NCBI GenBank assembly: GCA_903840415.1
Contig: CAIMFY010000021.1
Coordinates: 1 to 56,657, forward strand
Reading direction: 5' to 3'
From: an uncultured Opitutia bacterium
GTDB lineage: Bacteria > Verrucomicrobiota > Verrucomicrobiia > Opitutales > Opitutaceae
Length of the DNA stretch: 56,657 bases
Shown here one piece after another: positions 49,200 to 53,120 of this stretch. Each line of letters opens with the position of its first letter. The stretch's first letter is position 1. The translations under genes were made by a program, and so were the position numbers. The notes beneath the pieces were generated by a model, which was given only the letters and a program-made list of their open reading frames with translations, searched no databases and was not told the origin of the DNA.

Positions 49200-50407
49200 G
49201 TGCCACTACACCGTCGTCCGCCGCCCGCGATCGATTTTTCGAGCTGCTCCGCGCTGCCGTGGAGACGGAAACGTTCGTCAAACTCACGCTTGGGAAGGCG
49301 CGCGGCCCCGATACCACGCTGCGGAATCTTTTGGTTCGCCCTGTGGCGTTGAAAGCCGGCCCGCATCACGCCTTCGTCTGGCGACACGACAAACGCGACG
49401 TCACCAAAAACCTTTCAACCAACGCCGCCGCCACGGAAATCGAAAGACTCCTCGGCACCGATTTTCTCGACGCGCACATCTTCACCACCACGCAAACGGC
49501 GCAACTCGAATGCCAGCCCGACGGCACAGCGCGTCTCAAGGTCAGTCATAACACCGAAACAACTGCCTCGAAACGACCGGCCCACGATCAGCCTAAACAA
49601 CATCTCATCGCCGCCGATTCGTCATGGTTGCGCGCTCTCGGAATTACCAACGATCGTGGCCGCCCGCGCGAGGCCATGGCTGACAAGTTCAACCAGATCC
49701 AAAAATATTCAGAGTTGCTGACGCATCTGGTCAACGAGGCCAAGTTTTCCGCCGACCAGCGTTTGCGCATCGTCGATATGGGCGCCGGCAAAGGCTACCT
49801 CACGTTTGCCGTCGCCGCTCTGCTCGGTGATCGCGCCACGGTCTCTGGTATCGAAGCACGCCCGGAGTTGGTCGCGCTTTGTAACCGTGTCGCTCGAGAA
49901 AATAATTTCGCCAACCTCACTTTCACTGCCGGCCAGATCGATTCGTTTGAAATCGAAAATTCAAAATCGGGAATCCAAAATTCCCTGGATATCCTCATCG
50001 CGCTTCACGCCTGTGACACGGCTACGGACGACGCGCTCGCGAAAGGCATCGCCGCCGGTGCGAAGCTGATCGTCGTCGCGCCGTGTTGCCAAAAGGAACT
50101 TCGTCGCCAGCTCATCGCCCCGCCCGTGCTCACCGACGCACTGCGTCATGGAATTTTTCAGGAGCGCACGGCGGAATTCGTGACCGATGCGCTCCGCGCA
50201 CAGTTGCTCGAATGGACCGGCTACAAAACGAAGGTCATCGAGTTCATCTCGACCGAGCACACCGCGAAAAACCTGATGATCGCGGCCATCAAAACGCACG
50301 AGCGAGGCGATAACGCCGTCGCCGCGCGGGTGCGCGAATTCGCCAAGTTCTACGGCATTCGTCACCAACAGCTCGCGGCCCACCTCGGTTTCTCGCTCGG
50401 CGTATGA
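49196..50407 (+). CDS. SAM-dependent methyltransferase, PF13679 (Methyltransf_32)-like
   Basis: This 403-residue protein has the SAM-binding loop RIVDMGAGKGYLTFAVAALL near residues 196-215, SGIEARPELVALCNRVA, and LIALHACDTATDDALAKGIA followed by IVVAPCCQKELRRQL. The HACD...PCCQ pattern is shared with the TRM13/METTL25/GSTCD-like methyltransferases, suggesting an RNA substrate, but this is inference. The N-terminal 130 residues (LGKARGPDTTLRNLLVRPV) are a family-typical extra domain. The start is TTG at 49196, overlapping the previous stop. An AT-rich repeat tract at 49951-49985 encodes ENSKSGIQN within the Rossmann fold region. The next gene overlaps as ATGA. Confidence 0.85.
   Translation: MSATTPSSAARDRFFELLRAAVETETFVKLTLGKARGPDTTLRNLLVRPVALKAGPHHAFVWRHDKRDVTKNLSTNAAATEIERLLGTDFLDAHIFTTTQTAQLECQPDGTARLKVSHNTETTASKRPAHDQPKQHLIAADSSWLRALGITNDRGRPREAMADKFNQIQKYSELLTHLVNEAKFSADQRLRIVDMGAGKGYLTFAVAALLGDRATVSGIEARPELVALCNRVARENNFANLTFTAGQIDSFEIENSKSGIQNSLDILIALHACDTATDDALAKGIAAGAKLIVVAPCCQKELRRQLIAPPVLTDALRHGIFQERTAEFVTDALRAQLLEWTGYKTKVIEFISTEHTAKNLMIAAIKTHERGDNAVAARVREFAKFYGIRHQQLAAHLGFSLGV
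49951..49985 (+). repeat. In-frame AATCSAA heptanucleotide repeat tract (copy B)
   Basis: Five consecutive 7-base units close to AATCSAA lie inside the methyltransferase gene. The tract encodes ENSKSGIQN between a strand ending in FTAGQIDSF and the next strand LDILIALHACD. It is in the same reading phase as copy A at 27754-27784 in an unrelated gene. Confidence 0.75.
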
Positions 50408-51405
50408 CGTGGGACGAACTCGACTGGCCCGCTCTCGACCGTTTGCGCGGGAAATTTTTATCCGCTGCTGCAAGTGATGGCCCTTACTGGACCTCACCCG
50501 CTGATCTCGCGAGCTACGACTTCACCTACGGCGAACGGATTGGCTGGAAATGGGACCATGTCATTCGTGAGCTGAAACTGCGTGGCTGGCGGCCGGCGGC
50601 ACGGTCCGTCCTCGACTGGGGCTGTGGCAGCGGCATTGCAGCGCGGCGGATGATTCAGGCTTTGGGGCCGGAAAACTTCGAGACCCTCACCGTCTGGGAT
50701 CACTCGCCGGTCGCGTGCGATTTCGCAACGGCGGCTGCGGAGGCGTCCTTTCCGTCACTACGCATATCGCAAGCGACGCCCAGCTACCTTGCCGGTGAGT
50801 CGCCCATCGGCCTTTTGCTCGTCAGTCATGTGCTCAACGAACTGCCCCCGGATGCACTTACTGGCCTGCGCCAGATCGCCGCACGCGCCGAAGAGATCAT
50901 CTGGGTGGAGCCAGGCACCCACGTGGTCAGCCGCCAATTGGGCGCGTTGCGCGAGGAATTGGGGAGACGTTTTCGCGTCGTCGCCCCCTGCACGCACACC
51001 CAGGCCTGCCCGATCCTGCAACCGGGCAACGAACGCCACTGGTGTCACCATTTCGCGCCGCCGCCTTCGGAGATTTTCGCCGATTCGAATTGGGTGAAAT
51101 TCGGCCAGCGTGCCGGCATCGATCTGCGCAGCCTGCCCTACTCCTTTCTCGCGCTGGATCGGCGATCGGACCGCCCTGCGCCGAATGGCCTCTCTCGTGT
51201 CATCGGCCGCCCGGAGCATTTTAAACCCTACGCGCGCGTTTTGAACTGCGACGCATCCGGGTTAGCGGAACTCGAATTGCCGAAGCGCTCCGCCCCCGCG
51301 CTCTTCAAGCAACTCGATCGAACCAAGGCTCCGCTCGTCTACCGCTGGCAGCGCGCCGGCAAAAAGATCAACAGCGGCGAGGCTGTTTCAGCTCCTGAAT
51401 CTTGA
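50404..51405 (+). CDS. Rsm22-family methyltransferase-like protein with Fe-S-type cysteines
   Basis: This 333-residue protein has a SAM-binding region SVLDWGCGSGIAARRMIQAL near residues 68-87, SHVLNELPPDAL, and IIWVEPGTHVVSRQL. A cysteine-rich block reads APCTHTQACPI and HWCHHF (C196, C202, C214). A further cysteine, C282 in ARVLNCD, completes a four-cysteine set like the [4Fe-4S] ligands of mitochondrial Rsm22/METTL17, which helps small-subunit ribosome assembly. A role in 30S assembly is likely by family. The ATG overlaps the previous stop as ATGA, making it the fifth gene of the ABC-methyltransferase set. Confidence 0.88.
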   Translation: MTWDELDWPALDRLRGKFLSAAASDGPYWTSPADLASYDFTYGERIGWKWDHVIRELKLRGWRPAARSVLDWGCGSGIAARRMIQALGPENFETLTVWDHSPVACDFATAAAEASFPSLRISQATPSYLAGESPIGLLLVSHVLNELPPDALTGLRQIAARAEEIIWVEPGTHVVSRQLGALREELGRRFRVVAPCTHTQACPILQPGNERHWCHHFAPPPSEIFADSNWVKFGQRAGIDLRSLPYSFLALDRRSDRPAPNGLSRVIGRPEHFKPYARVLNCDASGLAELELPKRSAPALFKQLDRTKAPLVYRWQRAGKKINSGEAVSAPES

Positions 51406-51469
51406 TGCTCCTGTAGCCGACAACGCTGCCGCGAACTTGTGACGCTATCCTGCCTGCAAGCCCGGCGCT

Positions 51470-51497
51470 TGACTCGGCAGCGGCGCTATGGAACATC
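51470..51497 (+). promoter_or_regulatory. Probable promoter for the small basic protein gene
   Basis: TTGACT at 51470-51475 is followed by a 16-base spacer and GAACAT at 51492-51497. It resembles the tRNA-His promoter in this window (TTGACA, 17 bases, GACATT). It lies 23 bases before the small gene's start codon. The -10 element is weak. Confidence 0.4.
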
Positions 51498-51519: not shown

Positions 51520-51624
51520 ATGGGCCAACAACTGAACAAGTATATCAAACGCAAACGTCGCGCCGCCTATTTGAAGCGCAAAAAGGTCAAAGCCAAGCTG
51601 ACGACTAGCGCCAAAAAGAAGTAG
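51520..51624 (+). CDS. 34-residue highly basic protein, possible ribosome-associated factor
   Basis: ATG at 51520 opens a 34-residue protein, MGQQLNKYIKRKRRAAYLKR followed by KKVKAKLTTSAKKK. It has 11 lysines and 4 arginines, no acidic residues and no cysteine. The middle is likely helical. It lies between an Rsm22-family gene and rimO, both ribosome-related, and has its own probable promoter and a strong terminator, which suggests high expression as a single gene. It is unlike bTHX in sequence. I do not recognise a named family with certainty; binding to RNA or the ribosome is inferred from charge and context. Confidence 0.75.
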   Translation: MGQQLNKYIKRKRRAAYLKRKKVKAKLTTSAKKK

Positions 51625-51648
51625 CCCGCGCCGAGCCTTCTCCTCTAG

Positions 51649-51678
51649 CGGCGGTCTATGACCGCCGTTTTTTATTTT
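51649..51678 (+). terminator. Strong rho-independent terminator
   Basis: CGGCGGTC at 51649-51656 and GACCGCCG at 51660-51667 form a perfect eight-pair stem with a TAT loop, followed directly by TTTTTTATTTT. It ends transcription of the small basic protein gene before rimO. Confidence 0.9.
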
Positions 51679-51704
51679 ACCACCGCGCGCACCCGCTGCT
51701 TCGC

Positions 51705-53120
51705 ATGATCACGGTTAGTCTCATCTCCCTCGGTTGCGCGAAAAATCTCGTCGATTCCGAGATTATGGTCGGCCATCTGCATCAAGCGGGCATGAGGGTC
51801 ATTCCCGAGGCGGAGAACGCCGACGTCGTCATCGTCAATACCTGCTCCTTCATCGATTCGTCGAAGGAGGAATCGATCGGTCACATTCTCGAAGTGCATC
51901 AGCACCGTGGCATGACGAAGCGCCGCAAGGAGCAGAAACTCATCGTGGCCGGCTGCATGGCGCAGCGTTTCTCGAAAGATCTAACAACCTCGCTGCACGA
52001 CGAGGTGGATGCCTTTATCGGCCTCGACCAAGTCACGAAAGTGGCGCCGATCATCGAGGAACTGTTCGCCAAGGCCCGCGAGAAGAACGCGGCCCCGGTT
52101 TCCTTTGTCGCGGGTCGGTCGACTTATATCCCGGACTACGACACCCCGCGTTTCCGGCTCACACCGAAACATTTTGCCTACGTCAAAATCGCCGAAGGCT
52201 GCAACCACCCGTGCACGTTCTGCATCATCCCGCAGATCCGGGGTCGCCATCGCAGCCGCACCGTCGCGAGTGTGGTCGCCGAGGCGCGCCAGCTCGTCGC
52301 GGAAGGCGTGAAGGAACTCAATCTGATTTCCCAGGACACGACATTTTTCGGCATGGACACGTGGGACGAGCGCCCGAATCCACGCTCGCCGGTTAACTCC
52401 GCGCGCGGCACCGCGCTCACCACCCTGCTGCGCGAACTCAACGCGATCCCCGGCGATTTCTGGATTCGCCTGCTCTACACGCACCCGGCGCATTGGAGCG
52501 ATGAACTCATCCGCACTATCGCCGAATGCCCGAAGGTGGCGCGCTACATTGATATTCCGCTCCAGCACATCAGCGATCGCATGCTCGAGAAAATGCAACG
52601 CGAGACCAGCGGCGCCTACATCCGCGATCTTATCGGCCGCATCCGGACCGGGATTCCGGGCATCGCGGTGCGCACTACGTTTATCGTAGGCTTTCCCGGT
52701 GAAACCGATGCTGACGTCGATGAACTGTGCGAATTCATTCGCGAAGCGAAGTTCGATCGGCTCGGCGTGTTTCGCTACTCGCAAGAAGAAGGCACCCGGG
52801 CCGCGAGAATGGAGGAGCAGCTTTCGTCCAAAACTAAGGAAGCTCGGTGGCATCGCACGATGTCGCTCCAAAAAGAAATCGCTTCCCAAGTCAGTCAAGC
52901 CGCCGTCGGTCGCACTCTGCGCGTGCTGGTGGAGGAGCCGGGAGTCGCCCGCGGCGAGGCCGACGCACCCGATATCGACGGCCGCGTTTACGTGCCCCGC
53001 GAATTAGCCGTCGGTGAATTCGCCGACGTGAAGATCACCGGATTCCACGACTATGACTTGCTGGCGCTACCCGCCGGCGCAAAGCCGGACGAGTGGAAGA
53101 TCGCGCGCCCAGCGCAGTGA
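51705..53120 (+). CDS. rimO: Ribosomal protein uS12 methylthiotransferase
   Basis: This 471-residue radical-SAM enzyme adds a methylthio group to an aspartate of ribosomal protein uS12. The N-terminal cluster domain starts SLISLGCAKNLVDSE (C11) with VNTCSFID and VAGCMAQR. The radical-SAM motif CxxxCxxC is in AEGCNHPCTFCIIPQIRG. RLLYTHPAHW, YIDIPLQHISDRML and FIVGFPGETDADVDEL follow, and the C-terminal TRAM domain closes the protein. LGCAKNLVDSE separates RimO from MiaB. It lies behind a strong terminator, so it must have its own promoter in the short gap before it. Confidence 0.96.
   Translation: MITVSLISLGCAKNLVDSEIMVGHLHQAGMRVIPEAENADVVIVNTCSFIDSSKEESIGHILEVHQHRGMTKRRKEQKLIVAGCMAQRFSKDLTTSLHDEVDAFIGLDQVTKVAPIIEELFAKAREKNAAPVSFVAGRSTYIPDYDTPRFRLTPKHFAYVKIAEGCNHPCTFCIIPQIRGRHRSRTVASVVAEARQLVAEGVKELNLISQDTTFFGMDTWDERPNPRSPVNSARGTALTTLLRELNAIPGDFWIRLLYTHPAHWSDELIRTIAECPKVARYIDIPLQHISDRMLEKMQRETSGAYIRDLIGRIRTGIPGIAVRTTFIVGFPGETDADVDELCEFIREAKFDRLGVFRYSQEEGTRAARMEEQLSSKTKEARWHRTMSLQKEIASQVSQAAVGRTLRVLVEEPGVARGEADAPDIDGRVYVPRELAVGEFADVKITGFHDYDLLALPAGAKPDEWKIARPAQ

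Follow-up and report, generated by a model that had tools for sequence, protein, structure and literature searches.

A conserved, very basic mini-protein of Verrucomicrobiota is a candidate rRNA-binding component of the ribosome

Some ribosomal proteins are small and very basic. Thx (bTHX) is among the tiniest, with about 26 residues, a basic composition and a start with MG, and bS22 is a protein which we take to belong with the Pfam family PF08213. According to passages of one report, bS22 in solved ribosomes is helical, occupies a pocket of the 16S rRNA and touches the 23S rRNA as well (PMC10618245). The same passages describe bS22 of Borrelia, in which Lys and Arg make up 61% of the residues, and bL38 as proteins that had been left unannotated and were recognized through cryo-EM density, an example of how late small basic ribosomal proteins are recognized (PMC10618245).

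The window, by which we mean the whole stretch of 56,657 nucleotides analysed from an uncultured Opitutia bacterium, contains a short gene whose product, MGQQLNKYIKRKRRAAYLKRKKVKAKLTTSAKKK, is called the MGQQ protein here. The first-pass annotation of this DNA had pointed to a lysine-rich ORF of 34 residues with 15 basic and no acidic residues, and translation of the ORF confirmed it: 11 Lys and 4 Arg account for 15 of the 34 residues, and Asp and Glu number 0. The longest ORF in this frame has 61 codons and an alternative GTG start at position 51439, which is an unlikely start because conservation begins at the ATG at 51520 (Table 1). The locus had no match in Rfam (E<=1), and a search of plasmids and phages for a mobile origin gave no match at E<=10.

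Table 1. Coordinates of the MGQQ gene, its putative expression signals and its neighbours in the window.
Feature	Position	Strand	Basis
Rsm22-type methyltransferase-like gene	50404..51405	+	PF09243, 57.6 bits (cut-off 23)
-35-like promoter box CTTGACTC	51468..51475 (TTGACT 51469-51474)	+	conserved in relatives
Weak -10-like hexamer GAACAT	51491..51496	+	position logo; inferred
CDS of MGQQ protein	51520..51624	+	ATG start, TAG stop; ORF translation and conservation
Intrinsic terminator	51647..51679 (hairpin 51647-51669, T-rich tail)	+	hairpin scan and relatives
rimO, ribosomal protein S12 methylthiotransferase	51705..53120	+	NCBIfam TIGR01125, 466.8 bits (cut-off 356.95)

Relatives of the MGQQ protein occur across Verrucomicrobiota, and this speaks in favour of the gene, whose status as a protein had been made to depend on conservation in related genomes. 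With the 34-residue sequence as query, a match (E<=0.01) was obtained in 47 of the 61 genomes searched from the window's family, one per genome. Profile A1 matched 147 of 240 Verrucomicrobiota genomes (E<=0.01), and profile A2 matched 260 of 387 (E<=0.05 per genome, a threshold at which up to about 19 matches among the 387 genomes are possibly due to chance; the weakest were partly inspected). The matches with profile A2 were single except in five genomes (G142, G154, G216, G309 and G384). A scan of contigs confirmed 305 stretches, and the best 80 of these 305 all bear verrucomicrobial names, among them Opitutus, Opitutaceae, Akkermansiaceae, Verrucomicrobiaceae, Prosthecobacter, Luteolibacter and Pedosphaera. 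In being short, very basic and, in all but five of the 260 genomes, present as one match, the gene resembles ribosomal proteins in general.

The core common to the relatives reads MGQQxNKxIKRxRRxxYLKRK. All 30 of the best loci in the window's family start at an ATG with M[GS][QK]Q, and M1, Q4, N6, K7, K10, R13, R14, Y17, K19 and R20 are invariant among these 30 members while the C terminus varies; seven residues are still invariant in the 43 sequences of profile A2. A further 40 loci from 27 family labels, hand-picked among the matches for the study of gene neighbours (38 from other families and two from genomes of the window's own family that lack RimO), begin without exception with M/V-[GS]-x-[QP] at the start codon, which is ATG in 38 and GTG in 2. 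Across 110 distinct cores of 22 codons, mean pS was 0.59 and mean pN 0.17 (pN/pS 0.28), and third codon positions held 54% of the differences; between the window and a relative of the same genus, pN was 0.02 and pS 0.59. Judged by these substitution patterns, the core is under purifying selection as a protein, and the ORF is a genuine gene.

With profile A2, 127 of the 387 genomes yielded no recognized MGQQ gene, and when 23 non-matching genomes (all at least 94% complete) were searched again at E<=10, the best match had an E-value of 0.17. By sequence search, then, some lineages would either be without the gene or carry a form of it that lies beyond detection, and these misses make the gene look dispensable in some lineages. 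At one locus (L194, G200:C1:1741819-1741898) the frame breaks within the basic core and the sister genomes are intact, which points to a pseudogene or a sequencing error.

The suspicion that standard annotation misses this gene was borne out by the family libraries that we searched, as none of the 30 family members matches any Pfam or NCBIfam family (E<=10). Among PDB chains, profile A1 found no match (E<=10), and the sole match of profile A2 was CCDC124, a ribosome-hibernation factor, with an E-value of 0.37 that is not significant; kinship with CCDC124 was dropped on this value. The structure predicted for the MGQQ protein is one continuous helix over residues 3-33 (mean pLDDT 87.5), a prediction that would be expected for many basic sequences of this kind, and Foldseek returned 0 matches for it in the PDB, which may be no surprise when the query is one helix. 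Members of the window's family are 30-40 residues long. In Akkermansiaceae-type relatives the core is followed by a tail rich in Ala, Lys and Pro, giving proteins of about 65-184 residues.

The gene had also been credited with a promoter-like TTGACT element of its own. The box is indeed conserved, but a generic sigma-70 scan called no promoter at TTGACT, the -10 region being poor. TTGACT starts 51 nt upstream of the ATG, and the hexamer GAACAT, for which the consensus in relatives is approximately AAACAT, sits 16 nt after the -35 box. CTTGACT is present in all 29 family loci whose upstream sequence is long enough (L027, the remaining one of the 30, offers just 35 nt) and in 81 of 118 distinct upstream regions, where it lies 47-65 nt before the ATG. 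The invariance of CTTGACT in these 81 regions is the selection criterion itself; the base that follows it is C in 80 of the 81, the positions on either side carry less than 1 bit, and positions 34-40 and 43-47 past the box, directly before the ATG, hardly ever hold a G.

Other lineages have other arrangements upstream of the gene. Most of 27 other loci, chiefly of Akkermansiaceae type, carry CTTGAT, a spacing of 17 nt and TAGCCA, with the ATG about 13 nt further on, and in four loci of other families (L205, L207, L209 and L219) the -10 of a promoter-like site ends 11-13 nt upstream of the ATG. Because the promoter-like -10 lies so near the ATG in several lineages, these may produce transcripts that have a very short leader and lack a Shine-Dalgarno sequence; an SD-like motif is present in 21 of the 40 lineage loci. 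In the window's own genome of 4.9 Mb, the 9-mer GCTTGACTC has two copies, the second of which is inside the ORF of a long coding gene, and a longer pattern that includes the -10 occurs once. No regulon sharing the box was found with the exact words CTTGACTC and GCTTGACTC across the genome. The letters of GCTTGACTC read backwards occur 34 times in the whole assembly, compared with the 2 copies of GCTTGACTC itself, and strong -35-like words may be avoided in this genome (G000).

The terminator that had been proposed downstream of the gene was confirmed. Its hairpin has 10 pairs (7 of them G-C), starts 23 nt past the stop codon and runs into a T tail, and it recurs in relatives: a hairpin ending at a T-run no more than 110 nt after the stop was found at 117 of 132 testable related loci, against 13 of 132 when the same stretches were shuffled once and 5 of 131 in stretches 600 nt further on, so that the terminator stands far above chance. 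The hairpin is itself a copy of a palindrome, TAGCGGCGGTCTATGACCGCCG (window positions 51646-51667), that has two further copies in the genome and a third, 88% alike (G000:C109:24951, C82:16487 and C47:9912; L002-L004). These copies are without a long T-run, and the terminator may have arisen by recruitment of a repeat.

The position of the gene between an Rsm22-type gene and rimO, as first described, is supported by the matches to PF09243 and TIGR01125. In 29 of the 30 family loci the adjacent gene downstream, in the same orientation, is rimO; L033 alone departs from this. Rsm22 is found no more than 1.5 kb upstream at 12 of the 30. RimO is not the neighbour at any of 12 loci that carry other family labels, nor at any of the 40 lineage loci, of which 38 belong to other families; adjacency to rimO goes with one family, most likely Opitutaceae. 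As an argument, Rsm22 and rimO consequently carry less weight than they first seemed to, being the neighbours of one family.

Different translation genes flank the MGQQ gene elsewhere. EF-Ts (tsf) is encoded 26-41 nt upstream in four genomes of family f21 (L186, L187, L188 and L200; identified at one locus by Pfam scan and at three by eye), and a class-I release factor is encoded downstream in one f21 genome. LeuS is encoded upstream at two f39 loci, at distances of about 28 and 43 nt and with a family scan of one of the two, and Obg lies upstream in f25. YacP is a ribosome-associated nuclease, and NYN_YacP genes are found downstream in f8, f9, f64 and f68. An ABC-F ATPase follows the gene in f31; it is nearest to Uup, scores below the Uup cut-off and passes the cut-off of a ribosomal-protection-like ABC-F model. 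Neighbours outside translation comprise IspF and a ComF-like protein (f14), pyruvate phosphate dikinase (f30 and f50; one of these, cut by the locus end, falls just below the main-model cut-off), LpxA (f42 and f19), MutL (f20), Lnt (f31) and an FAD oxidoreductase-like protein (f33), and the ComF-like and FAD oxidoreductase-like neighbours are below all cut-offs. The upstream neighbour at L211 had no match in the family scan.

Of the 14 recognized types of co-oriented neighbour no further than 400 nt away, 7 take part in translation (RimO, EF-Ts, release factor, LeuS, Obg, YacP and ABC-F, with the window's Rsm22 excluded). The count comes from loci and proteins hand-picked after inspection and lends support, short of proof, to a role in translation; as a rough background, translation genes make up about 5-8%. 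The association with EF-Ts, LeuS, Obg, YacP and ABC-F is a better argument for a role in translation than Rsm22 and rimO, and other lineages have unrelated neighbours. At L201 (G074:C219), a region approximately 0.7-2.2 kb upstream has repetitive ORF translations (VAPHAGARIET and PPTRGRGLK) that look like a CRISPR array by eye.

We consider it probable, with moderate confidence, that the tiny MGQQ protein binds rRNA in the ribosome of Verrucomicrobiota, whether as a small ribosomal protein or as a factor tightly associated with the ribosome. The constant helix, the MGQQxNK start, the single copy, the gene's own signals and the translation neighbours all fit a protein of this kind, and we infer the link to the ribosome, and any binding to RNA, from composition, predicted helix and neighbours. 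The sequence establishes the gene, its conservation and its conserved expression signals, whereas transcription and translation, the place on the ribosome and the stoichiometry are matters of inference. The ribosomal or RNA-associated role that the first-pass annotation had proposed stands as the most economical reading, with its argument from Rsm22 and rimO weakened. Mechanistically, the helix would lodge in a groove of the rRNA by its Gly-Gln-Gln end and its Lys/Arg faces and stabilize local rRNA structure, in the manner of bS22 and similar small helical ribosomal proteins, and further, unspecific contacts to rRNA would come from the variable Lys-rich tail. Having its own transcription unit would give the gene its own production rate wherever it has moved. 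Against the ribosomal reading, half of the recognized neighbour types lie outside translation, and basic helical peptides this small can also bind DNA or membranes.

A more specific version, to which we give somewhat less than even credence, is that the MGQQ protein is a constitutive and previously undescribed ribosomal protein of Verrucomicrobiota that fills an otherwise empty rRNA groove and, in Akkermansiaceae, lays an H1-like tail across the subunit surface. The bTHX site is named as an example of such a groove because bTHX was not found in any of the 19 relatives searched (PF17070 in 0 of 19); the control search found PF17070 in Thermus.

The neighbours also bear on an explanation in which the protein is not a constitutive part of the ribosome but a translation factor that visits it in some states, such as hibernation, assembly or rescue. 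A YacP-type nuclease adjoins the gene in four family labels, and Obg, RimO or an ABC-F ATPase does so elsewhere; the only PDB match is a factor of ribosome hibernation, and absence of the gene from whole lineages fits a non-essential role. The match to CCDC124 is not significant, however, there is no sign of growth-phase control, and a promoter box unchanged across one family argues mildly for steady expression; we regard a visiting factor as unlikely.

The long tails raise the question of a nucleoid protein, a miniature DNA binder resembling histone H1. In this scenario the ancestral protein would have bound DNA through the tail, and the short forms would be what is left of it. Tails of the H1-like AKKAPAKK type occur in L085, L088, L095, L102 and L125 among the relatives, and the tail of L125 resembles the Hc2 family (21.6 bits), Rv3852 (25.5 bits) and H1-like proteins (24.5 bits). 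None of these scores, however, reaches its curated cut-off (40, 100 and 80 bits, respectively), the 10 invariant columns fall within residues 1-20 and hence in the N-terminal core rather than in the tail, and many relatives are tail-less, with the 30 family-level members matching nothing in Pfam or NCBIfam. A function in the nucleoid consequently seems improbable to us. Some of the tails end in acidic repeats, for example VETVEAVE in L102.

The constancy of rimO behind the gene within one family suggested two further roles, namely a leader peptide, in which the Lys/Arg-rich ORF would control read-through of the terminator into rimO, and a cofactor of RimO. The two genes occur together to some extent. 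A first sample had RimO in 11 of 15 peptide-bearing and in 1 of 18 peptide-lacking genomes, and the 387 genomes divide into 219 with both, 41 with the peptide only, 78 with RimO only and 49 with neither, a co-occurrence above expectation (Fisher p 1.5e-6, with phylogeny ignored and many genomes incomplete). Some of the genomes with RimO only belong to families where the MGQQ profile may be too weak. In the window's family within this sample, the peptide is present in all 26 genomes that bear RimO, and in 8 of the 11 RimO-less genomes it is kept. In the family loci described above, the ORF is co-oriented before rimO, in most of them with a terminator-like hairpin between the two.

Dependence of the peptide on RimO is ruled out by the same table of 387 genomes, in which the association remains. 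RimO is absent beside all 40 lineage loci as well as the 12 loci labelled with other families, the 41 carriers of the peptide have no RimO over cut-off (some of these genomes being incomplete), and genome G020 (locus L033) has a conserved peptide with no rimO downstream and no RimO over cut-off anywhere; these observations argue against both a leader peptide and a cofactor. A leader peptide would, moreover, have no need of the conserved MGQQxNK start. The ORF does not always precede rimO, attenuation of rimO is largely refuted, and we hold either role to be very improbable. RimO itself is over cut-off in 297 of the 387 verrucomicrobial genomes and in 0 of 8 in family f2, and S12 methylthiolation may have been lost repeatedly.

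That the ORF arose by chance in a terminator-bearing untranslated region or a small RNA has next to no probability, for although it is very short, matches no family and lies in a longest in-frame ORF with a GTG start, its start and core are conserved in the inspected loci across the phylum, Rfam had no match, and the substitution pattern in both comparisons refutes the idea.

If the MGQQ protein is ribosomal, then a large phylum, to which the gut commensal Akkermansia belongs, has a ribosomal component that is missing from the family libraries tested. The predicted sequence would allow immediate assignment of density in a future map of a verrucomicrobial ribosome. The gene also offers a short marker that is present in most of the sampled genomes of Verrucomicrobiota, and a case of a mini-gene that, in several lineages, has retained its own expression signals despite altered surroundings.

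Comparison with described proteins places the MGQQ protein near several of them and within none. The window's genome contains a second tiny basic gene (L140, G000:C110:102173-102259), of COX24_C/bS22 type and over the Pfam cut-off, and its product, like the MGQQ protein, is extremely basic and starts with MG, at about 33 residues. Genes of this type (PF08213), which in style come closest to the MGQQ gene, were found in 13 of 19 genomes, that is in 12 of 18 relatives, and scored over cut-off in 12 of 19. The MGQQ protein and the 30 members of profile A1, by contrast, gave 0 matches to PF08213 (cut-off 23 bits), and pairwise hhalign gave a probability of 1.4%; homology with bS22/COX24 is rejected on these profile and pairwise comparisons, and the genome has its separate PF08213 gene. 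The likeness to bTHX lies in the tiny size, the basic composition and the MG start, but neither the MGQQ protein nor the A1 members match PF17070 (cut-off 29.7 bits). With the Hc1/Hc2 proteins (PF07382) the Akkermansiaceae-type relatives share a tail rich in Lys, Ala and Pro; the similarity is confined to this tail, where it reaches 21.6 bits in the best of the tailed relatives scanned against a cut-off of 40, and the tail-less protein of the window has 0 matches. A description of the MGQQ protein was not found in the full-text literature, as judged by titles and the start of abstracts in a collection that mostly leaves subscription journals uncovered. The proteins bL37 and bL38, described in passages of one report as small ribosomal proteins restricted to some lineages (PMC10618245), offer a parallel in kind, although profile searches of the PDB, which cover these and other solved small ribosomal proteins, gave no ribosomal-protein match. 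Tiny, lineage-specific, basic ribosomal proteins are thus a known kind, and the MGQQ family appears to be new.
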